Positions 31,346 through 60,489 of a stretch of DNA of 64,000 bases are shown here, in pieces. The DNA lies in the NCBI GenBank assembly GCA_946699065.1, contig CAMPDV010000113.1, forward strand, positions 248,001 to 312,000, in the 5' to 3' direction. The position numbers and the translations under genes are program-made. How positions within the stretch are numbered: position 1 is the stretch's first letter; every line of letters begins with the position of its first letter. Below the pieces are notes generated by a model. The model did not search any database, was not told the DNA's origin, and saw nothing but the letters and a program-made list of their open reading frames with translations. Source of the stretch: Loxodes magnus. Its lineage: Eukaryota > Ciliophora > Karyorelictea > Loxodida > Loxodidae.

Positions 31346-31360
31346 TAAATCAATTGGATT

Positions 31361-31731: not shown

Positions 31732-31768
31732 ATAGAGCGTGTAGTATCTCGTTGGCACGCAGATCTTT
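31732..31768 (-). other. Terminal hairpin of element X, left arm
   Basis: Minus-strand AAAGATCTGCGTGCC ... CACGCTCTATAATC followed by an ATCTTTATTTATTA tail. It marks the 3' end of the composite element X; the twin is at 39855-39891. Confidence 0.55.
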
Positions 31769-31811
31769 CAATATTAATATTTAATTTACAAAAATTTATT
31801 TCTTGTTAAGA

Positions 31812-37375: not shown

Positions 37376-37652
37376 GATAAATAAATAGGGAGTAGCAATC
37401 CTTCAACTGACATTGACTTAAGATCTGGTGCCAGGAAGTACCCATGAGCGAAGAACCGAACAAGAATCTTGGTAGGATCCAAAAGAGAAAACAAAGAGGG
37501 AAGAGGCATCAAGTAATGCTATTGATGAAAAATGCCAGATATTAAGGTCTCTTAGGAAGCATTCCGATCACGCCCTATAGAAGACGAGACTCGCAAAGGA
37601 TATTAGCACTGTGGAATATTTCAGAAAAAAATTAATTTTAATAATCTTTATT

Positions 37653-37690
37653 AAAGAGCTGCGCGCTTTTGAGGAGCTACGTGCTCTCTA
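37653..37690 (+). other. Terminal hairpin, X copy 1 part 1
   Basis: AAAGAGCTGCGCGC ... TACGTGCTCTCTAATC. The stem AGAGC-(T)-GCG pairs with CGT-GCTCT, with a G-T wobble replacing a G-C pair. Confidence 0.6.
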
Positions 37691-37696
37691 ATCTTA
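37684..37696 (+). repeat. Target-site duplication of Y2, left
   Basis: CTCTCTAATCTTA, repeated exactly at 38643-38655. The uninterrupted site is at 48521-48533 in X copy 2. Confidence 0.8.
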
Positions 37697-38642
37697 ATAA
37701 TAATAATACTTTTAATTTGATATTTTCTGTTTTAGAGATTTTCAACCCGTCAGGAGGACAGCAGTTCATGCTCCCTGCTGTTAAATATAAAAGTGGTCAA
37801 CCAATTTTAGCAAGGTTGGGAACTTGGTTTTCTCAAGGTTTTCCTTCCTTTTACTTGATTTGGTTTCATCTTGATCTTGTATATTGATCCATCCGGATTA
37901 CAAAACATTCTTTTCATTCTTGCTTCTTCTTTTTTTGCTCTTTTATCCAATCATTTCTTTATTTCTATTAACACTTCCGATAAAAATGTCATACACTTCC
38001 ACAGCAGAAACATTTCTTTTTTATTTTGAATTATTTTCCTTGTTGGATTTGTTCTTTTTAGGCTTCGATTTCCATTTTTATAGCTCCAGTTTCGCTTTAA
38101 TCTTTCTTCAAAATTTACAATTTCTCTTCTAATTTTCCGAGTCCGTTATACGGTTCAGTCTGCAGTCTGTTTCTAAAGCTAATTTTAGGATTAACTATTA
38201 TAATTTTGTGATATGTTTCAAAAGGTGCTTAGCTCTCTTTCCTAGGGCATGAATCTTGATTCTATTCCTTCTGCTAGGTTAAGTTTTTGCATTAGCTTCT
38301 CATTGTCCAATCTTATCTTTTTAACCTCTTCCTGGAGGTTTAGTACAACTATAATGAACTGTTCCATGTTCACTGGCTAGAAGGGTTGAACTCTGAGACC
38401 TCCTGGTGTAAAGCAGATTTCGCAAGCTTTCTAGGCTTCTCCTCCTTATTAGAATAAGTCCATGAGTGCTTTTCCGAGTCTATTTCCGTTCTTCATAGTT
38501 CTATTATATTCCAGGTTGCTAAGATTATTTAGAAAAGGGTTAAGGTTAAGTGTAAGAAGACTGCTCGAGATTTGCATCTGACTTCCTCTCCTTCTTCGAG
38601 AATAGGTATCGAAACCCTTTTTGAAGCTTTCCATTTTTTTTA
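37697..38642 (-). mobile_element. Y retroelement Y2 (ORF1-only), full length
   Basis: 946 bases on the minus strand between 13 bp duplications. The 5' end is an A-run then ATGGAAAGC (ATG at 38634); the 3' end is a TATTATTATTA tail. With TAA/TAG as Gln the ATG frame gives a basic N-terminus, a coiled coil (LQEEVKKIRLDNEKLMQKL) and, near the end, RMFCNPDGSIYKIKMKP. The zinc knuckle at 37971-38012 is complete (C-x2-C-x4-H-x4-C, with TGA as the residue before His) but lies in a neighbouring frame, so two frameshifts flank it. The GSIYK motif matches the Y-family tail at 56 kb (GRIFR). No endonuclease or reverse transcriptase fits in the element. Confidence 0.75.
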
Positions 38643-38655
38643 CTCTCTAATCTTA
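38643..38655 (+). repeat. Target-site duplication of Y2, right
   Basis: Exact copy of 37684-37696. Confidence 0.8.
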
Positions 38656-39011
38656 TATATTTATTTATTATTTTTTTAAATAATATAAAATATGGATTTT
38701 GACCGTGGTCGGTAGAACCAGAGATAATCTGATGTAGTTCATACTGCATTCCAAGTAATCTCGCACTAGATGCTACTACGGGGAAAGATGGACAAGCTCG
38801 AAAGAGACAAACCTAACTTTCACGAGGGTTCTTTCTATCAATATGAAAGTTTAACTGACAGATATTCTAATATCATTAACTAATAATTTTATTTGAATCC
38901 TATTCAAGAAGACTGGAGCATTTGATTCAAGATTCGAGAATAATTTTTAATAAGTAGATTCCATATATTGAGAAGCTGACGTGACTCATTGGACTATTAG
39001 AATTTTAACAA
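38643..39011 (+). mobile_element. Composite element X, copy 1, part 2
   Basis: Continues X after the Y2 insertion and aligns with 48521-48877, including ACTAGATGCTA, GGACAAGCTCG, AGAGACAA and GAGAAGCTGACGTGA. The first half is unusually G+C-rich for this window and rich in small inverted repeats, so it may derive from a structured RNA; I could not identify which. It is interrupted by Y1 at AATTTTAACAA. Confidence 0.6.
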
Positions 39012-39811
39012 TAAATAATAATAATAATAATAGTAAACTAAAAGTCAAAAAAAGTTTAGCGTTCCCTGGAATCTAAACCAGGTTCTCGCTGCCAATTTTT
39101 TAACGTGATGGAAACACGACCAAATTTTTTACGTGGGAAATAGCCACTATGATAATCTCCTTGATCCGTTGAAAATCTTATTCTTGTATACTCCATTAGG
39201 AGTTCATATAGTCTTGTAAGTTCTCTTCATGTTATTTAGTTTTCCTTTCTCTTTAGTTGCTTAAAGCTTTGGCAGGTTTCAATAAATGGTTCTTTGAGTG
39301 GCAGAATCAGCATATTGTATATTTGATGATTTTAGACTTGGATTCCGGGTATAAATGATTCTCTATCTTTTCTATTCTAGTTATTAGGTTCTATTATTAT
39401 TTTTATTCTTATTAATTCTATTTGTTCTATGTTTATTAATCTTATTGAATATCCATCAACTTTTTTCGAACTAGATTAAGATTATATCAGAGCTGTTCTT
39501 TAGTCACTATTGACTTTGTAACAATTGGTTCCATAAGCAGTTGATTTCCTAATAAAGTTCTTCAATTTTATTTAAGAGTTCCCTTATCTTTTCCGGTAGA
39601 TTAAATATTACCTCATCCTTCTTTTAGAAATTTTTCTTCATAAGTCAAACTTAGCTATTCGATTTTATCAAATTCTTGCTGCTCAGTGTTCCATTAAAGG
39701 CGTTTTCCTTTTGTCGATGGAGGAGAGTCAGGGTCAGTTAGTTCTTATATTTGTCTTTGTGCAAGTTCCTGACTTTCTTCGCTTCAATTTTCTTTTACTT
39801 ACTTTCCATTT
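39012..39811 (-). mobile_element. Y retroelement Y1 (ORF1-only), right-arm copy
   Basis: 800 bases on the minus strand. It starts with an A-run and ATGGAAAGTAAG and ends AAACTTTTTTTGACTTTTAG plus an (ATT)n tail at 39012-39032. It is flanked by TTTTAACAA at 39003-39011 and 39812-39820; the uninterrupted site is at about 48870-48877. The sequence from 39074 onward is the twin of 31812-32549 and carries the same knuckle and RELTRLY helix. Near the 3' end CCTGG-TTTAGATT-CCAGG can form a hairpin. It is decayed by frameshifts shared with the left copy, so decay preceded formation of the inverted repeat. Confidence 0.75.
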
Positions 39812-39895
39812 TTTTAACAAGAAATAAATTTTTGTAAATTAAATATTAATATTGAAAGATCTGCGTGCCAACGAGATACTACGCGCTCTATAATC
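39812..39895 (+). mobile_element. Composite element X, copy 1, 3' end with hairpin
   Basis: Last part of X after the Y1 insertion. It ends in the hairpin 39855-39891 (AAAGATCTGCGTGCC ... CGCGCTCTATAATC) and a TTTATTTATTA tail. Aligns with 48878-48960. Confidence 0.55.
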
Positions 39896-40232
39896 ATCTT
39901 TATTTATTATATATATTTTAAATAGGGTGGAAAGCTCTTTCCTTCGGATGCTGCTTGAAGGCCCAGCAAGGCAACTAAAAGATGAGCGCGGACGGAGGAT
40001 AAATTGTAGAAAGAGAAACCAATAACAAGAGAAGAAAGATTCGACAAGCTGGAGAACTCTGAATGTCAGTTGAAAACCTTCTTCATGATAGATCAGGGAA
40101 AGACGTACCTGTAATCGCATATTGCATCCTATGCTTTGGAAGGAAAAACTATAAGGATTTACTGCAGGAAGAGAAAAGAAGGATAGAGAGATCCATAAAA
40201 TTTAATTTTTCGACATTAAATAAAATTAATTT
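39896..40232 (+). pseudogene. ORF1-type zinc-knuckle remnant, right arm
   Basis: Twin of 31391-31731. The frame 40063-40278 encodes CILCFGRKNYKDL followed by a charged helix and runs into the terminal hairpin at 40233-40262, so its end is set by the hairpin and not by a conserved C-terminus. It looks like a short 5'-truncated ORF1-type element. Confidence 0.4.
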
Positions 40233-40262
40233 AAAGAGCTGCAAGAGTGCTATGCGCTCTAT
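40233..40262 (+). other. Short terminal hairpin, right arm
   Basis: Twin of 31361-31390, with the GCA/TGC inner stem. Confidence 0.6.
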
Positions 40263-42189
40263 AATCCAATTGATTTAAATTGAATACTTGATTACTAATT
40301 TAACTACTAAGTTTTATTAGTTTTTAACTATCTTATAATAGGGTATACATATTAGCTTATAATTATATACAGCATTTTTTAATTTTGGAATTTTCAAGCT
40401 TTTACTCAGAATTGCTCAATTGAAGCTTGTTTTATTCTGTTTTTTAACAGTAACAAATGTAATATAAAATTTATAATATTAATTTATGAAAACATTACTA
40501 ATATTATTTTACTTTTTGATTGGCTTAAATTAGAAAATTATGAGATAATCAAGAAAATTAGATTAAATAAAAGTCTTAATCTCAAAATTTGATAAGCATG
40601 CTTTATGATAAAAAGACATACTTAAATACCCTAAGTCTAATAAATTTCCTTTAATTTCTCATGATTAGTGAGTTGATTTAACTTAATTTAGGAAATGTAT
40701 ATAAGTAATTTTTAGTAAGTTATAAATGCAGAAATAATGATAGCGTATTCATCATAATATGCAGTATTTGAGATAAATAAATAATTAATTATAGTAATTT
40801 AGGAAATAAATATTTATTACTAATATAGATAACTCTAAGCATCATATTATTATTAAAGCACAAAGTTATTATTTAATTATTCTTATCTCATTATAATTTA
40901 GTGCTAGATTAAATAAATCATCTAGCATACTAAGCAATATTTATATTAATGTACACTATGCTCATACCATAACAATCATTACGTTAATAAAATTATTTTA
41001 TTAGACTAAAACCTTAATAAACTAATGAATTTAGATAAGTAAAAGTATTATATGCTTTCATTATAGATAGATGGTTTCCTTAAGCTACTTTATTTTGCTA
41101 TATCAATTAACTTTAAGGAAAATAATAAAATTTATTATTTTTAATTATCTAAAAGTATGAGATAAAATCCCCATTCTTTTAGTATCTAAATAATTTGTTT
41201 CTGTTAATTGTGCTTAATCTTTTATTTATTTTACATTTTATAGTCAGAAAATTTAGAAAATGCTATTATTCATAAAATTTTATAGCCTAGAAAAAAGGAA
41301 TTTGCATCTATATTGCTAAATGAATGCTCAATAAAAATTGTAAAGTATTAAGAAAATAAACTTATACAATAAAATGAGTCAAATCTAATAAAATTTACAT
41401 TAAAGCTTCTCAATATTTTAGCAATGCATTATATAGCAAGTAGAGTATATTATATCTTTCAAAGTTATTCTTTATTAATTCTTATTGATACTTTAGAGGG
41501 TAAAGCATTAAATTACTTCAAACACACTATATATACAATTAAACTAACACAGTGAGATTTCATGTATCTATAAATTTTAATTTTGTTAAGTTAGAAAAAT
41601 TACATCTATCAACATTATTTGAAAGGCTTATTTTAATTTATTTTTAAGAATAATTTAATATTTTTAACTTTTATGTAGCTGGAGTTAATTAATCCTTAAA
41701 TGGCTATTTTCACAGCTATATTTAAATTAACTAAAAATTAAAAAGATAAAATCTTTGCTATATTTACTCTAACCATTAGTTTATTACTCTACATCGTTTA
41801 ACTAAATTTAAAAACACAACCTGTTTTTAATTCCGTATAGATGTAAAAGTACATTAATCTTAATGCAAGTTTAAAATACTTATTGCTATATCATTTTTAT
41901 ACAATGAAGAGGAATTTCTAAGAAAGCATAACTTGAAATGAGTATTTAGAATAAAAATAATAAGCAGAGCTAATAAAATAATAGTGTAAAAAAAGCGAAG
42001 CTTTAATAAACTTAAAGTTTAGAAATACTTTAATTTAAAATATTTTATTTCATCTTTATAATTTAAAGCCAACCATGCAAAACATATCGTCAGGTCCGTA
42101 ATAAAGAAAAAGCCAATTACTTTATTCTGATTATTCCCAATCTATTCAAGAAGATGAAGATGAGACTTAAGGAGAAGTAAACTCAGGGA
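40263..42189 (-). repeat. Satellite half Bf, inverted
   Basis: Reverse complement of 29434-31345 and related to 1-1930. No gene seen. Confidence 0.85.
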
Positions 42190-44444
42190 AATAAGTAAAA
42201 ATTAGCTCTAATCTAATCTTAAATGACTTAACTGGAGGCAGTTGCTAAAAAGGGTAAATAGGTACTAGTAATTAGCCAGCACCATATATAAAGGTATAGC
42301 AAGACAACATATTTAAGAAGTATTGCTTCTATACGCCAAGAATAAATAAAAACCAGAGTAAGTTATTTATTAACAACCTTTAGAAAATAAAAGTTTCTAG
42401 CTTAGTAAATTCTCTAAGTTTAACTTAGAAAAGATAAGCATAAAAACTAAATGAGTATAGCATAAAAATATATTAAACTAGCAAAAAACTAAAGAAATAC
42501 TAATTAATAAAGCAAAGCATCATTAATTCTAAATTTACTAAGAATGCTTAGTATGAGAGCTATGAGAATTATGAGAATTACGAGAATTAGGAGAGCTATG
42601 AGAATCAATTAAGTGCTAAATAATAATATTAAAGCTTAACTATTTTGTCGCTAGAAAAAAAAGAGAAACACATGCAAGAAAGATTAATTAAGTTAAGCAT
42701 AAAGTTAAGGTAAAATTAAGGTAGAACAATAAGGAAAAGAAAGCAGACATTGTGTTAACTTGCAAGATAAAATATTTTAAAACTAAGTAGAAGTCTCATA
42801 TTAGGAACATAGAGAAAAAATAGTTATTTACAAGTCTGTGTAGCTTCTATCATAATATTTATAATTTCCCACATGTTCTTAATGCTATGCGAGAAGTATC
42901 TGCTTAAATAATAAAACTGATATTGTTATGTATTTGTTAACTAAATCTTTCTTAATAAAATCTAAGTTGTATTAATTTGAAAATAACCTTTGACTAGTTA
43001 AAAATGAATAGTTTCATATTTTAAAGTTATTATACACTTGATATATGTATAATTAGATATATACCTTGCTTTAATATAATTAAAGAGTTGTAAATTTAAT
43101 TTGACTGGTAAAATAACAATAGACAATAGTATGATTGAAAGTTACGTTGAATGATTGATTTCTATTTATAAACTTTAATTAAGTTCTTGTTTAATAAATT
43201 TATATACAAAAGGTATAACAAAGCATAAACTTTAAATAGGATTATAAATGTAAATGAATATTGCTACCATCTTAAATGTTTAACTTTTAATATAGACATC
43301 TAGTACTAACTCTGATTTATAGTTTTTTGATATTAATTGAATAATTGATAATGTATAGCATCTTAATGATTAAAATGAAAGGTTTGAATTTGAAGTGGTA
43401 AGCACCTTTGATATCTAAGATGAATAATTAAAATGAGAGGAAGGTATAAATACTTGTAAGTAAATTATTTGAAATCTAGATATTTTAGTTAGTAGTTATT
43501 TAGCATTCAATTTAGTTTTATTTTAAAAAAGATTGCTTATATAATAATTTTTCCTTATGATATACTTTTGCTTTAATAGCTAAACTTTAAAATTTAGATA
43601 TCTAAATTAAAAATATTTAACTTATTTCTGAATGATTTTACATAAATAGAATTATCTGCAAATTATGATCTTCATCAAGAGCTTTAGAAATAAATTAACT
43701 TATAATGTCTAACTAAGAAGGCTTTCTTGATAATAACTGAATGGTTAGATAAATAATTAAATAGAAAGACTCTTTAAATAATTGAAATTAGTTATAAAGT
43801 TAGAAGGAATTATAACTTAAATATGATAAAAGTATTATATCTTAATAGTTATTAAGTTATTAAAGCAACTTATTATACATTTCTTTCTTAATAACTTTAA
43901 CTAGAAAATTTAGATTTTATGTTAAGTATAACTAATTATATCTATTATTTTAAAATACTTAGTTAGATCTTTTCTTGTTTAATAAATAGTTATCTTTACT
44001 TAATTGAAATTCCTTTATTTTTTATTAGGATGAAAATAATAAAACCTATCATTATATATCATAATCAAAATAATAAACAACAGCAGAATTAATTAAAGTC
44101 AGTGTATAATAGCCTTTTATATTTCTTTATTGTTATAAGAGTATGCTAAGTATCTTTATTAAAAATACTTAAATAGTTATATTAATCAAGATTATTTAAT
44201 GAAACCATTTTGCTCTCAAATTTTATTATCCACTTACATTTAGAATTGTAAGCATTTCCTTGCTAATATGAAGATACATTATTAAATATTAGTGATTTAA
44301 ATTATTAATTATGCTTTTTATTTATCATTTAAAATCTAGATTATACCTAGTTTAGATTATTTAAGATTAATACCTTTATCTTAGTTTATTTATATACATT
44401 AGACTAAGATACAAAATTATTACATCAAGCTTTATTTCATTATA
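42190..44444 (-). repeat. Satellite A half, inverted
   Basis: Reverse complement of the A half of the array units. It ends at GCTTTATTTCATTA, the inverted unit start. No gene seen. Confidence 0.9.
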
Positions 44445-44445
44445 T

Positions 44446-46980
44446 CATGAAATACTTTAAGCTATAATGCTAAGATCCCAAGGATAGCCCAACTTTATTA
44501 CAAATACTGGTAAAAAAAGTTTCAAAATTGACTATTTTTTGACAGATTAAGACATTGCATCTTATATAATTAGCACAACATTTTATCAAAAAAGAATTAT
44601 AGGAGATCACTAGTCAGGATTAATAAAAATAATCTATGCAATAAAGTAAAAAAAATCTACAAAAGTAAAAAGACTACACCATCAGAAACTTAAAATAAAA
44701 TATATATAAGATTAATTCAAGAAATGAGCAGACTAAATTGAATAAATGGGTTTTGAAAGCATAAAAAATGAAGACTATTATAAAATATGAAAGAAAAAAT
44801 ATAGGAAGGAGTGGAGAGCATATGTGGATACGCAAGGCAACAATAAAGAAAATACGATTACTTGGAGGAAACAAAAAAACTAAGAAGATAATTTAAAAAA
44901 TAAGCAAAAAAAATTAAAAATCTTATAAGATAAGAAAAAATTGACATTGCACTCAGTATAAAAATGAGACAAGAAGTCTGAAGTAGATTTAGAAAACAAG
45001 AAAGAAAAATAAAAGAAACTAATTCAATAGCTATCTGATTAGATTAATCAGGAAATATGAATGAAATTTGGAAAGGAATTTAAAAGTACACTAGACAAAG
45101 AAGTTTACTGCCTGAACACTGATAAACGAGGAAGATATCAAAAATTTTCAGAATTGTTGGAAAATTATACAATAGCGGAGATAATAGCATATCAAAAAAT
45201 TTAGAAATAAAAATAAACTAACAGTTTAGATAGAAGATATAAAAAAATGTCTGAATAAAGTTAATCTAATGAAAGCTACAGGACCAGACCAAATCCAAAT
45301 AGGAGTAATAAAAATCGGAGAAGATAATTTTATAAATATAACGGTAAAATTAATTTAAATTTAATTCAATCAAGGAAAATACCTAAACAGATTAAAGAAT
45401 CCTACATTATATTGGTACAAAAAAAGAAAACAAAGATGACCCTATGAAATACCGTCCAATATCCCTTATAAGCCACCTTTTTAAATCATAGATCTCTGAC
45501 TATTTGAGTAATTAAATCCTTACTTGTAAAGATGTGATGATGAATTATAGTACGGATTTAAAGCAGGTAAATCATGCTCTAAATAAATATTCAATCCTAG
45601 AACAATACAAGAATGACTATATTATAACAATCAAGAGACTATCGTCATCTTTATTGATATAAAAAAAGCATTTGATTCAGTAATCAGATCAGATATATGA
45701 AAAATACTGAATGAGATCGAAGTACCTGAAGGAATAATAAGATTCCTAGCAGACATTATATAAAGAGGAGAGCATAAGATTAAGAAAAAATGATATAATC
45801 TCTGAAGAATTTGAAGCTTAAAAAGGAGTAAAATAAGGATATGCCTGCTCCCCGAAATTATTCAATATAATAATAAATTAGTTACTGAATGAACTAAAGG
45901 AAAAAAAGCTGGAATTACAATACAGACTGAAACGGGACAGGGAACAGAATTAAGATATGTAGGTGCCCTAACATATGCTGATGATATTGTAGCATTAATT
46001 TATCCAGAATAACTAGAAGATATAACTGATATACTATAATAATGATCATAACGCCATAATTTATAAATTGTGGAAAAAACAAAATGAATGGTATGAAACG
46101 GTAATGCATGAAAAAATTAAGAGATAATCTTAATAAATGTAATAGTAATAGAGAAAATGAAGGAATTTAAGTATTTGGTCCATTGGGTATAAAACATTTC
46201 ATATTAAAAACATTTGGAATCAAAAGTCTAAGAATGCCAGAAAACCCAAGTATGAATTTTAAGCAAATAAACAATTTAGAAAGGAATCACTTCATATAAT
46301 GCATCTATAATAATAAAATCCTTTATAAATCAAATATTTTGGTATGGAAGTGATTGTATTCAATTAATAATGGAAGCTATAAGAAACAACTCTTTAAATA
46401 AATTGGAAATCATGCAGTGTAGATCATTAAGATCTATAATAGATGGACCATTTTGCGCATAAAACGAAATCCTGGAGATTGAACTGCAATTCCTGAAACT
46501 ACGATACTATATGTGATAACATATGTTAATGTTCAGAAGAAAATTGCTCCTAAACTAAGAATCAACATTGGATGGATGATTATGTCAATTAGTAAAGAGG
46601 AATAACTATATATTTGAAACATACTCAAAGAAGGTAATGGAGACACTTCAATTCAATGACGAAATAATAATACAAGATAACTAAAAAGAAATAAATGAGA
46701 TAATAATGATAAAAAAGCGATAAATCTCCATAATGATGTAAATTCCATTACACGAATGTAGAATATGATCACCTGCTAAAAATATAAAAGTGAATGAATG
46801 GAACAATTCATACAAGGAATACCAAGTTATCTAAGATTCAACAAACATAGAAAACAAGAAAAGGCTATAATTTAGGCTACGGGCCAAATGTAATGGAGCA
46901 GCATAAACAATGAAAGAACAAAATTTAATAGAGAGTGAAGCATGCTAATTCTGCAATTATAGAAAGGAAGATGAGATTCA
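44446..46980 (+). mobile_element. LINE-1 fragment, right copy (EN tail + RT + finger)
   Basis: Non-LTR retrotransposon remnant read with TAA/TAG as Gln. In order: endonuclease C-terminus with PNFITNTG, IDYFLTDQD and IIGDHQSG (about 44488-44630); a linker; RT block 0 KATGPDQI near 45270; RPISLISHLF near 45455; QYGFKAGKS at 45548; palm motif IDIKKAFDSV at 45653-45682; KGVKQG and SPKLFN near 45825-45865; YADD at 45974-45985; and a C-terminal finger, ACQFCNYRKEDEIH, near 46940. The order and motifs fit an AP-endonuclease LINE. Several short frameshifts, partly compensating and some at A-runs, interrupt it. In-frame TGA lies at likely Trp sites (QE-W-LYY, DI-W-KIL). The 5' end is truncated at the satellite unit boundary. 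An inverted duplicate is at 2433-4967. Confidence 0.85.
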
Positions 46981-47475
46981 TATAAATAAATAAATTTGAT
47001 TATAGAGCGCGTAACATTCTCGTTATTGCGCAACTCTTTAAAAAATGTTTCATACTGACAAGAATGTTTGTTACTGATAAAATTATCAGATACTGATAAA
47101 CCTTGTTCAATACTGGTATAATTATTCAGATACTGATAAAAATGTTCAGTACTGATATAATTTAAGAATACTCGTAATCTTAATACTTGCTGGAGGTCCA
47201 AGGACATGGCAGGATTGTGTCTCATTGCATCACCAAAGCAGAGGACGACATGTGTCAATTATGGATACTTAAATTCCCCATCTCTGATGAAGCTCGCAAT
47301 ATTATTTCTTTTTCGTTCTAGAATTAAAAACTAAACGAAGCCATTGTCGAAGGTCTAAGAATCTTATGTCTCGAGGTCAAACCAAAGCAGAGGAAGACAT
47401 AAAGTCGATTATGGGTACTTAACTTCCCCAACCTCTGATGAAGATGACCTTGTTGTTCACCTTCGAACAATGAAC
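46981..47475 (-). mobile_element. SINE-like element, copy 2
   Basis: Inverted duplicate of copy 1 at 1931-2432, with two head modules, ~20 bp repeats, hairpin 47002-47039 and tail. Its tail abuts the 3' end of LINE-1, so the two elements lie tail to tail. On the far side it meets the open frame 47476-48143, which the left copy lacks. Confidence 0.6.
47002..47039 (-). other. Terminal hairpin, SINE copy 2
   Basis: Minus-strand AAAGAGTTGCGC ... TACGCGCTCTATAATC; inverted twin of 2374-2410. Confidence 0.6.
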
Positions 47476-48143
47476 AAAGCAATATGATAAATAATATATA
47501 ATATATAATAAAAGATTGCAGATAATACAAAAAAGAAAGAGAATAGCTAATAGAAAATCTCGCGAACGTAAATATCAGTAATAACTAATAAAATTAAACC
47601 TTCCTGGACCTCAGAATTGAAGAAATATTATGAGGAAATTAGAAATTCGAAAAATTGTTACGAACCCTACAAGGGAGCAAAAGAAAATAAATAGATTATC
47701 ACATTAAAAATTTTCTGAAAGATATATTAGAGAAAAGAAAACTAGATTATATTTAAAAATTCTTCCTTATTAGAAAAAAATTGGTAAAGACTACAGAGCA
47801 GGATTCAACGAGCATACTTAAATTTATAATCTTTTATCAAGAGGACAAAATAAAAACTTTATTTAACAGATTAATAGTAATTCTAAGAAAATGTGAAAAG
47901 GAACTTGCGTTGCGCTCATAAAAGACTAACAGATAATTTAACTTTCTAAAGACAAATAAAAGAGTTAGAAAAATAATAGATAGAGAATAGAATTCTAACG
48001 TTTAAAAAGACCAAATACTGGAGATTGACTTATATTATTCAGATCAGGATATAATGAATCTATTGGAAGAAGATTTAGAATAAATTGAAGAAAATGAGCA
48101 GATTCTGGTAGATAAGATAATTTCCAAGAATACTTACTTTTGA
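47476..48143 (+). CDS. Unrecognised ORF (TAA/TAG = Gln), 5' end uncertain
   Basis: With TAA and TAG as Gln one frame runs from about 47490 to a TGA at 48141-48143, with a single internal TGA at 47631-47633. It gives a charged, mostly helical protein of about 215 residues, including HIKNFLKDILEKRKLDYIQ, FIIFYQEDKIKTLFNRL and an acidic C-terminal helix (IMNLLEEDLEQIEENEQ). Its balanced composition is unlike the Gln-swamped translations of non-coding DNA here. No start codon is secure because the SINE boundary cuts in upstream. The X segment ending in the hairpin at 48490 follows directly, so this may be the last ORF of a retroelement; a host gene fragment is the alternative. I do not recognise the family. 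Confidence 0.5.
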
Positions 48144-48489
48144 TTCCCTCTTAATTTGTAGTCAGCCTATCAATGGTGTAGTCACGTAAATTAATTAATA
48201 AATTCATTCATATAAATAAATAGAGAGGAGCAATCCTCCAACTGACATTGACTTAAGTTCTGGTTCTAGGAATTACCCATGGGCGAAGAAACAAACACAA
48301 ATCTTGGTAGGAGTCAAGAAGATAAAGATTAAATAGGTATCAAGTAATGTTATTGATGAAAGATGTCAGATACTAAGGTTTCTTAGGGAGCATTCCGATC
48401 ATGCCCTATAGAAGTATAGATTCACAAAGGATGCTAGCACTGTAAAAGACTTCAGAAAAGAATGTTTTTTGACTTTAAAAGTCTTTATT

Positions 48490-48526
48490 AAAGAGCTGCG
48501 CGCCATTGAGGTGTTACTTGCTCTCT
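48490..48526 (+). other. Terminal hairpin, X copy 2 module 1
   Basis: AAAGAGCTGCGCGCC ... TACTTGCTCTCTAATC. The outer AGAGC/GCTCT pairs are kept and the inner pairs are weakened. Confidence 0.5.
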
Positions 48527-48919
48527 AATCTTATTTATTAATTATTTATTAAATAATATAAGATGCGGATTTTGGCCGCGGTCAGAAGAACTAGTAGGTA
48601 ATCTGATGAAGTGTATACTGTATTCCGAGTAATCTCGAACTAGATGCTATCACGGGGAAGGGTGGACAAGCTCGGAAGAGACAAGTCTAACTTGAACGAG
48701 AGTTCTCGCTAGCAGTATGAAAGTTTGATTGATGGGTATTCTAATATCATTAATTAATAATTTTTATTTTGATTCTATTCAAGAAGAATGTAATATTTGA
48801 TTCAAGATTATTTTTTAATAAGTAGATTCCCATTTGGAGAAGCTGACGTGATTAATTGGACTATTAGAATTTAACAAGAAGTATGAGAAAATTTGTTCTT
48901 AATATTAAATAATAATATT

Positions 48920-48956
48920 GAAAGATCTGCATGGCAAAGAGGTACTACGCCTCTAT
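48920..48956 (+). other. Terminal hairpin, X copy 2 module 2
   Basis: AAAGATCTGCATGGC ... TACGCCTCTATAATAATC; a decayed member of the hairpin family. Confidence 0.4.
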
Positions 48957-48960
48957 AATA

Positions 48961-50962
48961 ATCTTGATTTATGATTTATTTAAGTTAAATACTTATTTAC
49001 TAATTTAACTACTAAGTTTTTAATTATCTTATAATAAGGTATATATATTAACTTATAATTATATACAGCATTTTTTTAATTTTGGAATTTTCAAGCTTTG
49101 ACTCAAGTAAGTTCCAAGAGATATATATTTGTTCAATTAAAGCTTTTCTGTTTTTAACAGTAATAAATGTAGTATCAAATTTATAATATTCATCCATGAA
49201 AAACATTGCTAATATTTTTTACTTTTTGATTGGTTTAAATTAGAAAATTATGAGATAAACAAGAAAATTAGATTAAAATAAAAGTCTTTATCTCAAAAAT
49301 TTGATAAGCATGGTTGATGATAAAAAGACATACTTTAATTCCCTGATTCTAATGTAAGGCTTTAAAAATAGTATTTTAATTTCTCATTATTAGTGTGTTT
49401 ATTATAACTATATTTAGAAAATGTATATAAGTAATTTTTAGTAAGTTATAAATGAGAAATAATGATAGCCTGCTCTTCATAATATACTAGAGATAAATAA
49501 ATAATGAATTATAATAATTTAGAAATAAATAACTATTGCTTATATAGATAACTCTAAGCATCTTCTTCATATTATTATTTATTAAAGCACTAAACTTATT
49601 TATTATTTAATTATTATTGTCTCATTATAATTTAGTGCTATATTTATCATCTAGCATACTAAAAATATTTATATTAATGTACACTATGCTCATATCATAG
49701 TACTTCTAAATAATTTAAATCTATACATCATTTAGCATAAATTAATTTAAGAATTTAGCTTATTTTATAATTGACTAAAACCTTAATAAATTAATTAATT
49801 TAGATAATCAAAAAGTAATATACTTTCCTTATAGATAGATGCTTTCTTTAAGCTACTTTATATTTATATCAATTAACTTTAAGGAAAATAATAAAGTTTA
49901 TCCTCTTTAATTAACTAAATCATTTACTTATTATTTTGCTAAAATAATCTATTTATTTTACATTTTATAGTAAGAAAATTTAGAAAATATCATTATATAT
50001 AAAGATTAATAGCCTAGAAAAAAGGAATTTACATCTATATTACTAAATGAATGCTTATAAATTTAAAAGTATTAAGGAAATAAACTTATACAATAAAATG
50101 AACCAAATCTAATAAAATTTACATTAAAGCTGTTTAATATTTTAACATTGAATTATATAGCAAGTAGAGTATATTAAATCTTACAAAGTTTAGTTATTCT
50201 TAACTATCTCCTTTTGATACTTTAGAGGGTAAAACATTCTAATTTACTTTAAACACACAATATAAACAATTAAATTAGCACAGAGAGATTTCATGTATCT
50301 TATTAATTTTAATTTTGCTTAGGCAGATAAAATTACATCTATCAACATTATTTTAAAGGTTTATTTTAATTTATTTTTATGAATAACTTAATATTTAACT
50401 TTTGTGTAGCTCTAGTTACTTAATCCTTAAAGGGATATTTTCTAGTTAAGCAACTATATCTAAATTAACTAAAAACAAAAAAGATAAAATCTTACTTTAT
50501 GGTATATTTACTCTAACCATTAATTTATTACACTACATGGTTTAACTTAATTTTAAAATACACTTAGTTTTTAATTCAGTATAGATGTAAAAAATACAGG
50601 ATTTAGTGCTAGTTTAAGAAATTTACCGTTATATCATTTTAATTAATTATACAATAATAAGAAATTTAAAGAGTAAGCATAACTTGAAATGATAAGCTAA
50701 AGTGATTAGAATAAAATAATAAGCAGAGCTAATATAATAATAGTACGAAAATAATGAAGCTTTAGAAAAAATAAAGTTTAGAAATACTTTAATTTAAAAT
50801 ATTTTATTTATTTAGATTAAATTCATCTTTATAATTTAAAGCCAACCATGCAAAACATATCGTCAGGTCCGTAATAAAGAAAAAGCCAACTACTTTATTC
50901 TGTTTGTTCCCAATCTATTCAAGAAGATGAAGATGAGACTTAAGGAGAAGTAAACTCAGGGA
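48961..50962 (-). repeat. Satellite half Bf, inverted, outer copy
   Basis: Reverse complement of 1-1930 (coordinates sum to 50964), a little longer because it keeps ~60 bases next to element X that the left copy has lost. No gene seen. Confidence 0.85.
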
Positions 50963-52720
50963 AATAAGTAAAAATTAGCTCTAATCTAATCTTAAATGAC
51001 TTAACTGGAAGCAGTTGCTAAAAAGGGTAAATAGGTACTAGTAATTAGCCAGCACCATATATAAAGGTATAGTAAGACAACATATTTAAGAAGTATTGCT
51101 TCTATACTCCAAGATAAAATAAAAACCAGAGTAAGTTATTTATTAACAACCTTTAGAAAATAAAAGTTTCCAGCTTAGTAAAGTCTCTAAGTTTAACTTA
51201 GAAAAGATAAGCATAAAAACAAAACGAGTATAGCATAAGAATATATGAAACTAGCAAAAAACTAAAGAAATACTAATTAATAAAGCAAAGCATCATTAAT
51301 TCTAAATTTACTTAGAATTCTGAGTATGCTTAGTATGAGAGCTATGAGAATTACGAGAGCTATGAAAATCAATTAAGTGCTTAATAATACTAAAGCTTAA
51401 CTATTTTATAGTTAGAAAAAAAAGAGAAACACATGCAAGAAAGATTAATTAGATTAAGCATAAAGTTAAGGTAAAATTAAGGTAGAACAATAAAGAAAAG
51501 AAAACAGACATTGTCTTAACTTGCACGATAAAATCTTTCCAAACTAAGTAGAAGCCTCATATTAGGAACATAGACAAAAAATAGTTATTTGCAAGTTTGC
51601 GTAGCTTCTATCACAATATTTATTATTTCCCACCTGTTCTTGAAGTTATGCGAGAAGTATCTGCTTAAATAATAAAACTGATATTGTTATATAATTTCTT
51701 AAATAAATCTTTCTTAATAAAATCTAAGTTGTATTAATTTGAAAATAACCTTTGACTAGTTAAAAATGAATAGTTTCATATTTTAAAGTTATTATACACT
51801 TGATACATGTATAATTAGATTTAAAGCTTGCTTTAGTATAATTAAAGAGTTGTAAATTAAATTTGACTGGTAAATTAACAATAGACAATAATATAATTGA
51901 AAGTTATGTTGAATGATTGATTTCTATTTATATGGTTTAAGCTTTTCTTTAATAAAGTTATAAACAAAAGTTATAAGAAAGCATTAATTTTATATAGGAT
52001 TATAAATGTAAATAAGTATTGCTATCATCTTAAATGTTTAACTTTTAATATAGACATCTAGTACTAACTCTGATTTATAGTTTTTTGATATTAATTGAAT
52101 AATTGATAATGTATAGCATCTTAATTGAAGGTTTGAATTTGAAGTGTTAAGCACCTTTGATATCTAAGATGAATAATTAAAAATGAGATATAAATACTTT
52201 AAAGTCTATTGTTTTAAATCTAGATTCTTTTTAAGTTATTAGTAATTTTAGTATTTAGTTTTATTCTTAATTTTTATATAAATAACTTAAATTTAGATTA
52301 TACTAATTTTCCTTACAACACACTTTTATTTTAATAGCTAAACCTTAAAGATTCAGTTATCTAAATGTAGAATATTAACTTATTTCTGAATGATTTTACA
52401 TAAAAAATATAATCTGCATATTATTATCTATATCAGTGCTTAAGAAATAATGAAACTAAAGATTTCTAACTAAGTAGTTATCTTTAACTGAATGTTTAGA
52501 CAAATAATTGAATAGAAAGACTCTTTAAGTAATTAGTTCTAGATAAGCTTAAAGTGTTAAATATAATGAAAATATTATATCTTAATAATTATTAAGCTAT
52601 TTAAATAAACTTATTATACATTTCTTTTTTAATTATTTTAGCTAGAAAATTTAGATTTTATGTTAAGTATAACTAATTTTATCTATTATTTTAAAATCTT
52701 TTAGCAATAATTATTAAAGA
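50963..52720 (-). repeat. Satellite A half, inverted, diverged and shortened
   Basis: Aligns with 42190-43960. The first ~1.1 kb is close; after about 52200 substitutions and indels accumulate, and the last ~500 bases of the A half are missing. No gene seen. Confidence 0.8.
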
Positions 52721-53999
52721 TAAAATTATTTTAATAGAAATAATTTATATAGCTAGTCTAAAATCTTTAATAAACATATTATCTAAGATAAGAAAAACAT
52801 TATATACTTTCACTATATATGGGTGCTTTCTCTAAGCAACTTTAACTTAATTTGTATATTTTTAATTATATTAACTTTAAGGAAAATGATGATATCTATC
52901 CTTTTTAATTAACTAGAGATATGAGATATATTCTAATACATTCTTAGTAATTAAATAATTTTCTTTTTTATCCTTGCTTAAAGTTATTTTACATTCAATA
53001 GCAAGAGATTTTAGAAAATGCAAATGTATATAAAGTTTTATAACTTATACAAAGGAATCTACTAACTTAGTAAATATATGAATGCTTAAAAAGATTTAAA
53101 GTATTAAGAATTTATAAAAAAAAGCAATAACTCTAATAAACTTTACATTAAGATGCTAAAATACATATTTTAACTATGCTATATATAACAACCAAACATT
53201 TAGATCAAGTTAAATCTTAATAAGGTTTGTAGTTTTTAAATCCTTTTCATACTTTTAAAATTAAGACATTTTAAGTTATTTTAAACACACAGTTTGTATA
53301 ATTAAATTAATGCAGCTTATGCACCAAATTTCATGTATTTTAGAAATCATTTTTGCTTTAGATAGAAAAAAGCTATGAAAATCTCATAACAGTATTTAAA
53401 AAAAGTCTAGTTTATCTTAGTTGCAGGTAACTACTTTTATGTAGTTGGAGTTAATTATTTCTTAAATGAGTATTTTCTATGTAAAAACAACTGAAAAATT
53501 TAACTAAAAATAAAAGATATAATTTCGCTTTATGGTATTGTTATTCTAACCTTTTACTAACGAAGATTTACTTGATATGAAAAAACACTAAATTTTTAAT
53601 TCTAAATAGATGTAAGAGAAGTACATGAATCTTTGTGCTAGTTTAGAAATTTACCGTTAAACTATTTTTTTAATTATACAATAATGAGAAATTTTTAAGA
53701 GACAGCATAACCTTGAAAGTTGGACTAAAGATATTTATTTAGATAAATAAAAAGATAACCAGAGTTAATATAATATTAGTACGAAGCAAGTGAAGCTTTA
53801 ATAAAGTTAAATTTAGAAATACTTTAATTTAAATCATTTTATTTTATTTAAAGTCTACTTTATAATTTACAGCCAAAAATGCAAAATAAACCATCAAGCC
53901 TATATTAGAGAAAAACCCTATAGATTTATGCTATTTATTCCCAGACTATTTAAGAGGAAGAAGACGAACTATCGACTTAAGGAGAAGTAAACTCAGGGA
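52721..53999 (-). repeat. Satellite half Bf, inverted, strongly diverged
   Basis: Recognisable against 49800-50962 by landmarks such as ATTAACTTTAAGGAAAAT and the terminal CTTAAGGAGAAGTAAACTCA. It has many indels. Confidence 0.7.
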
Positions 54000-56115
54000 T
54001 ATAAGTAAAAATTAGCTCTAATCACATCTTAGATGACTTAACTGGAAGCAGTTGCTAAAAATAATGAATAGATACTAGTAATTAGCTAGCACCATATATA
54101 AAGGCATAGTAAGGCAACATATTCAAGAAGTATTGCTTCTATACTCCAAGATAAAATAAAAACCAGAGTAAGTTATTTATTAACAACCTTTAGAAAATAA
54201 AAGTTTCCAGCTTAGTAAAGCCTTTAAGCTACGCTTAGAAAAGATAAGCATAAAAACTAAATGAGTATAGCATAAGAATATACGAAGCTAGCAAAAAATT
54301 AAAGAAATACTAATTAATAAAGCAAAGCATCATTAATTCAAAATTTACTTAGAATGCTTAATATGAGAATTAGTTAAGTGATAAATGGCAAGGCTAAAAC
54401 TTAACTATTTTATAGTTAGAATAAAAAGAAAAATAAATGTAAGAAAAATTAATTAAATTAAGTATAAAGCTAAGGGAAAATTAAGGTGAAACAAAAAAGA
54501 AAATAAAATCAGCACAAAAATTATCTTAACTTGCACAGCAAAATATTTTTAAAATAAATGGAAGTCTCATATTAGAAATATAGACAAAAAATAGTTAATT
54601 ATAAGTCTGCGTGGCTTCTATCACAATATTTATTATTTCCCAACTGCTCTTAAAGTTATGTGAAAAGTATCTGCTTTAATAATAAAACTGATATTGTTAT
54701 ATAATTGGTTAATTAAATCTTTGTTAATAAAATTAAGTTGCATTAGTTTAAAAATATCTTAGTCTAGTTAAAAATGAATAGCTTTATATTTTAAAGTTAT
54801 TATATGCTTTTAATATTATATAGCAAATGCTATAATTAGATTTATATCTTGCTATATATAATAATTAAACAGTTGTAAATTTAAAATGATATGTAAAATA
54901 AATAACAATAGACAATAGTATCATTGAAACTTATGCTATATTATTTATTTAGTTAACATTTATATACTTTAAATTAGGCTTTCCTTTAATAAACTTATAT
55001 ACAAAAGTTATAGCAAGCCATCAATTTTAATTTTATACAGCAGGATTATAATATAAATAGTTATTGCTATCATCTTAAATTTATAGATCTTTAATATACA
55101 CATTTTACACTAACTCTGATGGATCTATACTTTTTAATATTAGTTTAATAATTTATAATATACAGCATACTTAAGGATTAAAAGCTAAGCTTTTTATCTT
55201 AAGTGTTAAGTTACTTTTATAATTAAGAGTATTTATTAAAAAATAGAGCAAGATATAATTACTTGTAGGCATATTCTTCGAACTTATGAACTTTTTAAGT
55301 TAGTAGTAGTTTTAGTTTACAATTCTGTTCTTAAATTTTATATAAATTAACTTTTTTTAGATAGCAAGATTGCTTATTTTTTCCTTATGAATCCACTTTT
55401 TACTTTTAGCAGCTAAATTTAAAAATTTCACTTATCTAAATATAGAACTATTTACTTATTTCCAAGTTATTACCTAAAAATGATATGCATTTTACAATCT
55501 CCATAAAGAGTTTAAAAATAATTGCACTTATAATGTCCAACTAAGTAGTTATCTAAATAATAACTGTATATTTAGATATTTTAAAACAACTAGTTTCATA
55601 CATAGATTCTTTAAATTATTTGTTTTAGTTAAAAAATAAGGTAGAAAGGAATTGTAAACCTAAGATGTTAAATATCTTATATAAACTATTTTGATTAATA
55701 ATTATTAAGCTATTTAAATATAACTTTTATTAATTTCTTCGTTGGCTAGTTTTAATTAAGTAATTTTAGCTAGAAAATTTAGATTTTATATTAAGTATAA
55801 TTAATATCTATTATTTTAAATAGCTAGTTAAAGATAATCTTTCCTTAAGTAACAATCATATTTTCTTAATTTAAATATTTTTATTTTTATTACTTAGAAA
55901 GGAAATAATAAACGTTATCACTATATATCATAATATAAATAATAGATAACCAAAAATAATAAAAATATGATTATAGTAGCAACTTATTATTCTTTATCAT
56001 GATAAGATCATGCTATGTGTCTTTATTATTAACTATTTACTTTACCAATTATATTAATTCAGATTTTTCTGTTCAATTTCATTATCCAATTGCAATTAAA
56101 TTTTTTAACTTTTTC
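54000..56115 (-). repeat. Satellite A half, inverted, strongly diverged
   Basis: Aligns along its length with the A half (for example TTAGCTCTAATCACATCTTAG at its start) but is heavily eroded. It is the outermost satellite copy seen on this side and adjoins the LINE-2 fragment. Confidence 0.7.
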
Positions 56116-56124
56116 TTAATGAAA

Positions 56125-56139
56125 ATTAAAAAATTTAAT
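56125..56139 (+). repeat. Target-site duplication of Y3, left
   Basis: ATTAAAAAATTTAAT, identical to 56793-56807: 15 of 15 bases, though low in complexity. Confidence 0.7.
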
Positions 56140-56792
56140 AATAATAATAATATACTAAATTAAAGTGTTCGTATCTCCAGGGATTTTAAACCCCTTCAAT
56201 ACATACCTCCAGAGTTCGTTCCTTGAGGTTTAAAATAAAAGTTTGGGACTCCCAGTTTTTTTGGAGTTCTGGCACTCCCTTGAAAAAGCCTCCTTCTAAA
56301 TATTCTTCCATCCTTGTCTACATAAATTCTTGAAAGTTCTCTCCAAATCTCTTCACTGTTTCTTCTCTGTTTATCCAAATATATCTTGCATCTCTTGTAT
56401 GTGTGGAATCTTGATTTGCACAGGTAGCACAGCTTGACAATTCTTCTGGGAGGAGTTATCTCTAAGGGTTTTGTGTATTCTAGTTCCATTTTATTTTCAG
56501 CTAAGATTTAAGGTTAAATTCTTTTTTCTCCCAAAAGTTTCACTTCGATTTCCTGTTTCATTAATCTTTCTTCATTGTTTTAACTTTTCTATAGTAATTT
56601 TTAGTTTTCTTTCTTTAATATTTAAACTTCTTCTTATAGGTTACGGATAGATTTCATAAGTTATTCTATTATTAGCTATTCATCATTTTTCTATTTCTAC
56701 ATTATTTTTTAATTACCACTTTTCATGTAGTTGCTTGATCGTGGCTATGGGAGTAAAAAGTCTCGCTTGATTTAGTCAGCTTCTGTTGATTT
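56140..56792 (-). mobile_element. Y retroelement Y3 (ORF1-only), 5'-truncated
   Basis: 653 bases on the minus strand, bounded by a perfect 15 bp duplication. One frame (TAA/TAG as Gln) runs from the 5' boundary (~56790) to a TGA just below 56196 without a frameshift or internal TGA. It encodes a coiled coil (NLQEEVQILKKENQKLLQKS), then PPRRIVK, a zinc knuckle at 56388-56429 (C-x2-C-x4-H-x4-C, CYLCKSRFHTYKRC), EEIWRELSRIY and DGRIFRRRLF. The 3' end is AACACTTTAATTTAG and a (TTA)n tail. The A-run/ATG start of full-length Y elements is absent, so the copy is 5'-truncated. It is the best-preserved ORF1 here and needs only TGA as stop. Confidence 0.8.
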
Positions 56793-56807
56793 ATTAAAAA
56801 ATTTAAT
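56793..56807 (+). repeat. Target-site duplication of Y3, right
   Basis: Identical to 56125-56139. Confidence 0.7.
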
Positions 56808-57828
56808 TATATGATCTTTAGTAATTAAAAAAGTAAGCAAGAATATAAGGAAACTCACATTAAATTTGGAAGAATAAACCAACAAGCAACTAATCTTCAT
56901 GAGACAACGAAACAAATTTGGAAAGACTTCAAGTATATTCTGTGAAAATTTAAAAAAAAAGAAAACAAAAAGCAAATTTCTACTTCTAGATGGAGATGTA
57001 AGGGAATATTTTCACATGATAAGAAAATTCTAAATTCCAAGAAATTAAATTTAATTAAGAAATCAAAAATAAATTATTGATTCAAGGGAGAATAGCGTTT
57101 TTAACAAAAATTCTAATCTAACTCAATTATAGATAAGTCTTAGTAATAAAAAAATAGATAAAATATACAATAATATTTAAGAAATTAAAGATTGTACACC
57201 CTCATTTTTATAAGGATTTAATCATTTTACCATAAAAGAAATTCCAATTGGAAAAGCAGTAGATATAGACGGAATAAAAGGTGAATTTTTAAATATTGTA
57301 GATATTATCAAATATCAATTTTCTACATTTTTCTGAATAATATGTTAAGACTTGGAAGAATTCCTTAGGAATTAAATACATCGGTAATAATTCAAATATT
57401 TAAAAAAAAGGAAATAAAGATGATTGAAAACTGACGACCTATTTCTCTTATTATACTATTATAAAACTATATGATAAAGCTTAGCAAAGGGATTACACAA
57501 TCTGATTTATTAAAGAAATTTGATTCACCCTTCATAAATAAGATTCATGAAAAATAGATAAAATACTTAATAGATTTGAATAATATAACAAATAATTTAT
57601 GACTATCGGAAACGTGAAAAAGTTTTGATTAAATTGATTGCAACATTGATAGATATCGAAAAAATATTTGACTCAATAGAAAGAAGACTTTTGTTTGATC
57701 AACTTAAGAGAGTTAAACTACCACTTGGACTTATAAAAACCTTAGAATAGTTTTACAAAAGCCTAAGTTCTTCATTAATTATAGATGGAAAGAACACTAG
57801 AACATTTTAATAAAACAATGGAGTTATG

Positions 57829-57845
57829 TAAGGAAGTTTTCTTAT
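57829..57845 (+). repeat. Target-site duplication of Y4, left
   Basis: TAAGGAAGTTTTCTTAT, matching 58683-58699 at 16 of 17 bases. The duplicated bases are part of the LINE-2 codons around QGSVL. Confidence 0.8.
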
Positions 57846-58682
57846 ATTATTATTATATTAACTAAATGTAAAATTAAAGTTTGCATATCCTGGGTTTTCA
57901 ATCAGGTTTCTGCTGACAGGTTTTTTTCTGTGGTTGTTCTCCACAACTTTTTTTAAAGTGGACGGTTACCAAGAAGGATTCTCTTAGTTTCTTGTTCATA
58001 GTTTCTATTTATATATTCCTTACTCAGTAATCCAAAGTTTGTTTAAGTTTCTTCAGGTCCTTTATTCTTCATTATAATTGAGTTATCTTCGTTACTTACA
58101 ATTTCTTAGTAAATGATACCAAGATTAGCAGTACCAACAATTTTTAAATCGTTTTTCCAATTTCTATTTTAAAAAAACTTTTTTCTCCAGCATCTCAATT
58201 CTTTTGTTTATGTTTGTATCATTTTTTACTTAATTTTACTTTTCTTAATGTTGTATTTTGTGCTAATCTTCTTCTATGATCATTATTTGTGATTAATTGA
58301 AGTTAGTTTACGACATTTCATAAAGTTAATTTTCTGTTACTACTGAGTTTTTAATCAGTTAACTTTTGAGAATTAGCAGTTCGTTATTTTAATCTTCTAT
58401 GTAATTCATTAGCTCCCGGATTTTTTCTCCTTGATTAAAAAATATCTCTTCATATTTTGCAATTTTTTCTTTCATTTTTTCGATTTGCTTTGGAGTAAAT
58501 TGTTATTTTTGGTTTCAGGATTTTATTGTTCATTCGGACCAACCATTACTTTTCCCTCTAAAGACGAGCTAGATTCTCTATCTTGTCTTTGCTTTTTTAG
58601 CCCCTCGTTCGTCACTTGTTTTCTTGTTTTTCTTTGTTATTTCTTAGAAAGACGAATGTTCTTCTCCATTTTTTTTATTTTT
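57846..58682 (-). mobile_element. Y retroelement Y4 (ORF1-only), full length, in LINE-2
   Basis: 837 bases on the minus strand inserted in the LINE-2 RT gene. The 5' end is an A-run then ATGGAGAAG (ATG at 58667-58669); the 3' end is GCAAACTTTAATTTTAC with an ATTATTATTATA tail. With TAA/TAG as Gln: a basic N-terminus, one frameshift near 58480, a coiled coil (QIEKMKEKIAKYEEIFF and beyond), a zinc knuckle at 58098-58139 (CWYCQSWYHLLRNC, C-x2-C-x4-H-x4-C), then EEQRT-TGA-RNLNKLW and a basic tail. That TGA aligns with the TGG of EEIWRELSRIY in Y3. Conversely, its CWYC is TGG where Y1 has TGA. There is no room for RT or endonuclease. Confidence 0.8.
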
Positions 58683-58699
58683 TAAGGAAGTGTTCTTAT
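58683..58699 (+). repeat. Target-site duplication of Y4, right
   Basis: TAAGGAAGTGTTCTTAT; see 57829-57845. Confidence 0.8.
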
Positions 58700-59960: not shown

Positions 59961-60489
59961 ATGTCAAAAAGAAAAGAATTATTAGAAATGGAAAAAGTAA
60001 AAAAAAGGAAGAAGTAAAAGACGAGACTATAACAAGAATAATTAAAAATTGATAAAATCAAGATTATATTTAAAAAGCATTAAAAACATTTATTAATGTC
60101 TATAATAAAGGGAGCAATTCTTACTGTTATAAATGTCAAAAAATTCTTTATTTAAAAATTTAAATTTAATAAGAGAAATTATTAAAATCCTTTAATTTTT
60201 TAAAATTTATCATAAAAATAAAAGAGATAATTTAATTAAATTTAAAATTATAATTTAATAAAAAATTCATTTAAGTTGATTTCTCATTCAAATAATAGTA
60301 AAATATTTCTCACTTTTCATTAAACTTTAACTTTATATTATATTATTTAATTTACTGAATATTAAATTTTTTAATTATAGAAAATTCTATTTTTAATAAT
60401 TTAAATTATTAATTATCTTTTAACTACTCAATTTTGGAATTTTAAGTAAAATTTTTTCTTGAATTAAATCTTTTTCTAGTAATCTCTTT
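59961..60489. other. A+T-rich stretch, little signal
   Basis: The plus strand has a short Cys pair (SYCYKCQKIL near 60120) that could be the tail of LINE-2. Otherwise no domain or repeat was recognised. Confidence 0.4.

Follow-up and report, generated by a model that had tools for sequence, protein, structure and literature searches.

Short retroelements encoding only an ORF1-type protein in the ciliate Loxodes magnus, probably served in trans by another LINE

A 64-kb window of the Loxodes magnus genome (C113:248001-312000) contains four short insertions, Y1 to Y4, that belong to a lineage of retroelements 0.8-0.95 kb in length. We conclude that these Y elements are non-long-terminal-repeat (non-LTR) retroelements encoding only an RNA-binding protein of the open reading frame 1 (ORF1) type, and that they are probably served in trans by the ORF2 protein of another element, a long interspersed nuclear element (LINE). 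They are selected ORF1-only elements, not random truncations, nor, as sampled, did they arise from a common LINE by internal deletion. The original prediction of a half-LINE moved in trans is borne out in its ORF1-only content, fixed ends and many copies, to which selection on the protein can be added; the partner LINE is still a presumed one. Element positions below are window coordinates, and genome searches were run on the host assembly of 705.7 Mb.

Copies, ends and interior of the Y elements

Y1 to Y4 are separate families. Their DNA cannot be aligned with one another, apart from a 29-base match between the tails of Y3 and Y1, which rules out the single family first proposed and leaves several old ones. 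Next to a Y2 copy (L011) we came upon a fifth family, Y5; a possible further family, Y8 (in L038), was recognised from a 3' end and a motif only. We searched the genome with each family and scored the 40 best matches. Among those of Y1 were the copies in the window and many matches 84% identical to a young subfamily, whose copies are nearly identical to one another; those of Y2 ranged from 82 to 100% identity, with 37 of 40 nearly full length. All 40 Y3 matches were ~100% identical from query position 18 to ~670-680, and all 40 Y4 matches covered almost the entire query at 95-100% identity. Judged by the ~100% identity of the Y3 copies and the nearly identical young Y1 copies, Y elements have evidently been active recently.

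A 35-place pattern for the 3' end matched 299 places in the genome for Y1, Y4 and Y5 together, an average of ~100 exact 3' ends per family, and its reversed control matched none; a 35-mer from the start of Y4 matched 106. The many copies foreseen with an A-run/ATG start and the 3' end are thus present. These counts replace our first-look candidate numbers (1258-4591), which we dropped as copy numbers. A second 3' pattern allowing other stems gave 8 further genome matches, and the four of these that were printed were Y4 or Y5 variants. By eye, all 104 printed matches to the 3' module (100 of the 299 and 4 of the 8) were Y1, Y4 or Y5.

Of the 100 listed 3'-pattern places, we fetched the first 20 blind to their 5' ends. 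The sample comprises families Y1, Y4 and Y5 only and represents 18 insertions, because L099/L100 and L101/L102 have common flanks and each pair is one insertion. Nineteen of the 20 copies reached the common 5' end, 18 of them without gaps and one (L094) with an internal deletion of ~80 bp; L097 was the sole 5'-truncated copy. Random truncation, already disfavoured by the original prediction, is therefore rejected. Between the start and the 3' module, none of the 20 contained ORF2-like or reverse transcriptase (RT) sequence, in keeping with the claim that no endonuclease (EN) or RT lies inside. LINE ORF2 fragments were present in the flanks of three copies (L092, L109 and, weakly, L096), and L092 is nested in a W-type LINE (described below) with a 17-bp duplication.

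The spacing of Y4 ends gave a similar picture. Twenty-four of 40 listed Y4 5' ends (106 in total) had a listed 3' module 758-767 nt downstream, and for none of the 40 did the nearest listed 3' module fall between 768 nt and 15 kb; the other 16 starts had no exact listed 3' match, which mismatches may explain. This comparison used 38 3' places assigned to Y4 by eye among the 100 listed of 299, and one more from the second pattern. Together with the absence of RT from the 20 sampled copies, it indicates that the Y copies examined do not in the main run on into an RT ORF, the case that had been set against the original prediction.

Of 29 complete copies, 27 lay between target duplications of 10 bp or more, a length reached by 5% of 2000 mismatched pairs of flanks; this count left out L014 and L016, whose end pattern was unmatched, and the 29 include the two pairs with common flanks, each of which stands for one insertion. 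Sampled copies open with an A-run and then ATG (GATG in Y1), replaced by TTG in L101/L102, and they end in a hairpin (GCAAACTTT...) followed by (TTA)n or, in most young Y1 copies, (TA)n. Y elements therefore bear the hallmarks of target-primed reverse transcription, namely variable-length duplications, a 3' tandem tail and 5' truncation (1 of 20 sampled copies, and Y3 of the window). No LTRs were seen in the Y junctions printed, where the ends are the 5' A-run or start codon and the 3' tail.

The A-run before the start codon in L091-L110 was ~2-12 long, differed from copy to copy and was accompanied by almost no other leader; its variable length could come from slippage at the start of transcription or from untemplated addition. 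Among Y4 copies, of which L108 is another, L096 and L104 have in common a longer leader, AAAATTAAATTAGGAA..ATGG, between the duplication and the start codon.

The Y protein and its selection

The proteins of Y1, Y3, Y4 and Y5 are homologous (E 3e-59 to 5e-8 between pairs) and share one layout: a coiled coil, a single CX2CX4HX4C knuckle and then a WRxL...G motif. The protein is 264 aa long in Y1 and 254 aa in Y3. Y1 and Y4 are 37% identical over 247 aa (E 8e-44), and the Y3 protein aligns to those of Y1, Y4 and Y5 over 52-65 aa (E 5e-10 to 5e-8). The knuckle, recognised by eye, keeps its C, C, H and C in all four families, as the motif keeps its W, R, L and G.

The best RT matches in the host genome mostly contain 7-9 TGA, ~4 TAG and ~8 TAA codons in frame, from which we conclude that TAA and TAG read as Q and TGA as W. 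This reading fits karyorelict code 27 and the 706-Mbp Loxodes magnus macronuclear assembly as given in the available passages of PMC11441545. Because TGA can be read as W, an open frame alone proves nothing, and we discarded frame length as evidence of coding. The Y frames hold 4 (Y1), 1 (Y3), 3 (Y4) and 2 (Y5) TGA codons, counting the probable stop in Y1 and Y3, as against 4-8 per shifted frame. The Y1 frame ends at a TGA within the 3' module and that of Y3 ends before the hairpin. Translated copies stayed in one frame throughout in 7 of 7 young Y1 and 3 of 3 Y3 cases; Y4 copies were mixed, several being frameshifted.

Substitutions also followed the frame. The ratio of nonsynonymous to synonymous divergence (dN/dS) was 0.15, 0.15 and 0.10 in three Y4/Y5 pairs, 0.20 for Y1/Y4 and 0.44 for Y1/Y5, as against 0.81-1.27 in shifted frames of the same codon alignments, and Y4/Y5 differences at codon positions 1/2/3 numbered 81/49/129. 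The frame-dependence of dN/dS is clear, and on these alignments the Y protein appears to be under purifying selection. PDB matches of the protein were coiled coils, the best at E 0.009, together with a single nucleocapsid p7 chain at E 0.99; neither these nor a plasmid search gave anything useful.

Since Y elements encode neither EN nor RT, yet have been copied many times with a selected protein, they presumably borrow their copying enzyme from elsewhere. The target duplications, the tail and the absence of RT are what lead us to infer mobilisation in trans. In such a cycle, Y RNA would be translated, the coiled-coil/knuckle protein would coat its own RNA in cis, and an ORF2 protein from another element, a LINE, would copy that RNA by target-primed reverse transcription, starting at the Y 3' hairpin and tail.

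The 3' module and the host LINEs

We compared the last ~60 nt of the elements and scored alignments as z-scores against dinucleotide shuffles, leaving out of the reading of 3' ends six loci that overlap the window. The ends of Y1, Y3, Y4 and Y5 are mutually related (z 3.1-20.8); the Y2 end scores 6.4 with Y3, to which it is related, and 2.6 with Y4, a weak relation, while its scores with Y1 (1.4) and Y5 (0.9) show none. The ends of Y1, Y4 and Y5 fold in two tiers, with a short stem below and the stem CCUGG/CCAGG above it; Y1 has GCG/CGC where Y4 has GCA/UGC. The ends of Y3 and Y2 form G-rich/C-rich hairpins. The Y fold is similar to the stem-loop that stringent-type LINE RTs recognise (PMC4176376, PMC5135761).

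These ends bear on the idea that a LINE produced the Y elements from host CCHC genes, as processed retrocopies that happen to be numerous. Selection on the coding region, a short leader and a 5' A-run would all suit such retrocopies. However, the copies lack poly(A) and end instead in (TTA)n or (TA)n with a 3' module that is related across families; exact ends recur on the scale given above for 3' ends and Y4 starts; and the same design is repeated in several families. We regard this explanation as highly improbable.

According to the available passages of PMC11441545, the Loxodes magnus genome holds ~2,700 copies of RVT_1 and at least two LINE families, 5-6 kb long, that appear to be complete. 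We compared Y ends with the 3' ends of five LINEs, A, B (one copy), W, E and F, in 30 Y-LINE comparisons, and searched LINE 5' stretches in chunks with a profile of the Y protein, using the window as a positive control. The LINE tails are (TTTA)n in A, (TTAA)n in B, (TTTAA)n in W, (AATT)n in E and (ATTTT)n in F.

Several results weigh against a selected lineage served in trans. The LINE with the same 3' end that the original prediction expected did not emerge: over the last ~60 nt, none of the five LINEs matched Y convincingly, the best scores being z 3.9 (Y8 with B) and 2.9 (Y8 with W). The folds of the Y stem-loops scored modestly, from -0.01 to -2.76. A Y-type ORF1 did not turn up in any of the LINE 5' stretches searched, those of B (L061), W (L062/L070), A (L065) and E (L066), which are few and partly incomplete. 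Values of dS were 1.5-3.1, near saturation, so that the dN/dS sizes are only rough, and Y could have inherited the trace of selection from a full-length LINE outside the sample. Near the C-terminus, a stretch of 30 codons in Y4/Y5 had differences of 7/8/11 with no clear third-position excess, which makes coding there doubtful, and Y4 and Y5 (L014, L109) have no in-frame TGA, the only stop, for the last ~45 or more codons before (TTA)n. Pfam gave no family above cut-off for three Y proteins, zf-CCHC showing no match at E<=1, so the label 'ORF1' rests on architecture. Finally, a profile of the other Y proteins did not detect Y2 of the window, whose kinship therefore rests on its knuckle and 3' end.

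We rejected LINE A as a partner, since neither its 3' hairpin nor its tail, (TTTA)n, is like that of Y, and LINEs E and F for their tails and low scores. SINE-like repeats (resembling short interspersed nuclear elements) at 37377-37697, 46981-47470 and 61641-62015 of the window carry, by eye, the LINE A 3' hairpin (GAGCTGCG...CGCGCTCTATAAT), which suggests that 3'-end parasitism is at work in this genome. Just past an A-type LINE 3' end elsewhere (L064, C105:425700-431500), a Y-like piece lies on the same strand (profile positions 167-230, E 7e-7).

The Y families might instead be repeated internal-deletion derivatives of full LINEs whose parents are rare, extinct or unsampled. HAL1 arose from L1 in this way several times, according to the available passages of PMC5753468; in LINE B, a knuckle sequence, CENCQAVGHSTYQC, lies upstream of EN (L061); and first-look RT candidates number in the thousands, of which few families were read. 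Against this, the Y profile matched none of the LINE 5' stretches examined (B, W, A and E). The ORF runs directly into the same 3' module in Y1, Y4 and Y5, so that separate deletions would have had to converge, and every one of the 104 printed module matches belonged to these three families. Deletion is thus an unlikely origin, and we continue to favour ORF1-only elements served in trans.

As to what might serve them, LINE W is the complement of Y. It is 3.66 kb long and encodes EN-RT only (copy C48:457301 to ~460963; L070, L067), and it has no room for an ORF1 because the EN-RT start codon lies only 149 nt from the 5' end. Two young copies begin at the same base, one of them with a 16-bp duplication. 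Exact matches genome-wide number 337 for a 5' 40-mer and 364 for a 3' 43-mer, with none in controls. Drawing on 87 of the 5' and 98 of the 3' ends, we found that 53 of the 98 listed 3' ends pair with a listed 5' end, 51 at 3588-3614 nt and the others at 3183 and 4456.

W and Y could therefore be the two halves of a split LINE, like a segmented retrotransposon, in which the Y chaperone gene and the W EN-RT gene jump separately and depend on each other. The lack of ORF1, the fixed 5' end, the hundreds of identical ends and the Y-like duplication of one copy would all agree with such a division, as would the sequence TTTAGTTWA, seen by eye beside the tail in W, Y1 and Y4. This link looked promising, but alignment of the whole 3' ends gave only z 1.9 (W/Y1) and 1.8 (W/Y4), the tails are unlike, and the W 3' end folds no better than shuffles. 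Many LINE clades also manage without an ORF1. On the side of a split stands one W copy (L114, C678:84952-85302, minus strand) that, close to its 3' end, continues in the same orientation as a Y-like fragment (E 6e-8, profile positions 167-251); the junction may reflect either template switching or the nested insertion of a 5'-truncated Y. W thus allows a split system without demonstrating one, and we consider mutual dependence quite improbable. For Y elements simply served in trans, W or a relative is our best guess at the supplier of the enzyme, a tentative one.

The window insertions and known systems

The four window insertions are real, as originally claimed: all lie on the minus strand between target duplications of 12-17 bp, and a paralog lacks both Y2 and Y1 (Table 1). 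This paralog is 79-82% identical to both flanks of Y2 and Y1, with the empty-site points at 48518-48533 for Y2 and 48870-48883 for Y1. A locus on contig C165 (L004/L010) has Y1, Y2 and their flanks in common with the window at 86-87%, so both insertions seem, from these identities, to be older than the window/C165 duplication. The ~190 bp beyond the 5' end of the window Y3, up to AAAAAATGGCAG, are present in three longer relatives (L018-L020).

Table 1. Y elements and associated features, in window coordinates
Feature	Position	Strand	Description
Y2	37697..38642	-	Old frame-shifted copy; knuckle CFCCGSV(TGA=W)HFYRKC; (TTA)n end at 37697
Y2 target duplication	37684-37696 / 38643-38655		CTCTCTAATCTTA, 13/13 identical, script-checked
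Y1	39019..39811	-	Old decayed copy, 84% to young subfamily
Y1 target duplication	39003-39018 / 39812-39827		TTTTAACAA(T/G)AAATAA, 15/16 identical, script-checked
Second Y1 copy, 755 bp	31793..32547	+	99.6% to Y1, inside inverted segmental duplication 27173-32547 vs 39076-44445
Y3	56140..56795	-	5'-truncated by ~190 bp; knuckle CYLCKSRFHTYKRC
Y3 target duplication	56128-56139 / 56796-56807		AAAAAATTTAAT, 12/12 identical, script-checked
Y4	57846..58682	-	Knuckle CWYCQSWYHLLRNC; 3' hairpin CCTGATTGAAAACCCAGG
Y4 target duplication	57829-57845 / 58683-58699		TAAGGAAGT(T/G)TTCTTAT, 16/17 identical, script-checked
Degenerate W-type LINE hosting the Y4 insertion	56988..60173	+	RT and C-terminal zinc finger; 52-67% to W ORF2; ~70% DNA identity to young W 3' ends
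Paralog with the Y2 and Y1 sites empty	48212..48991	+	Without both elements

Elsewhere in the window, a tandem array of ~4.44-kb units, 95-98% alike, occupies 4967-30092, with inverted copies at 41531-47470 and 39076-44445. At 44517-46872, on the plus strand, lies a degenerate relative of LINE B (45% identical in protein), followed by a SINE-like repeat. Contigs C4605, C5455 and C5131 carry copies of Y1, Y3 or the LINE A RT at short, partly regular spacings, which suggests that these retroelements were caught in tandem arrays.

Y looks like a diversified, recently active ORF1-only lineage that keeps its protein, and it raises the question of why a LINE parasite needs an ORF1 protein of its own. 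Its presence beside the ORF1-less W, with hundreds of copies and identical ends, makes the cis action of the ORF1 protein and 3'-end recognition testable in a ciliate.

To our knowledge, ORF1-only LINEs are known mainly as mammalian HAL1 offshoots. At the level of titles and the starts of abstracts, the open papers searched yielded no ORF1-only non-LTR family besides HAL1. The two LINEs of the same genome named in the available passages of PMC11441545, rnd-1_family-27 and -19, have RT and EN domains, thousands of copies and lengths of 5-6 kb, unlike the short Y elements; these passages describe no ORF1-only elements, and the words 'CCHC' and 'zinc' are absent from the main text.

Among known systems, the TR-GAG elements of plants are gag-only LTR retrotransposons in which, as in Y, only the nucleic-acid-packaging gene is kept. 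They differ from Y, in which no terminal repeats were seen and which has non-LTR insertion hallmarks instead. Like stringent-type SINEs, Y elements are short and non-autonomous, with a foldable 3' end and a tandem tail; unlike them, they encode a selected protein, and their 3' end matches no LINE tested. HAL1 encodes the ORF1 protein only and has several origins from L1, as stated in the available passages of PMC5753468 and PMC4859970, and Y resembles it in encoding an ORF1-type protein without EN or RT and in its presumed movement in trans. HAL1 has a known parent, L1 (passages of PMC5753468), whereas neither a HAL1-type parent nor a shared 3' end was found for Y among the LINEs sampled. Y is thus HAL1-like in its working, and it differs in comprising several old families unalignable as DNA, with a coiled coil, a single CCHC knuckle and a foldable 3' module ending in (TTA)n.

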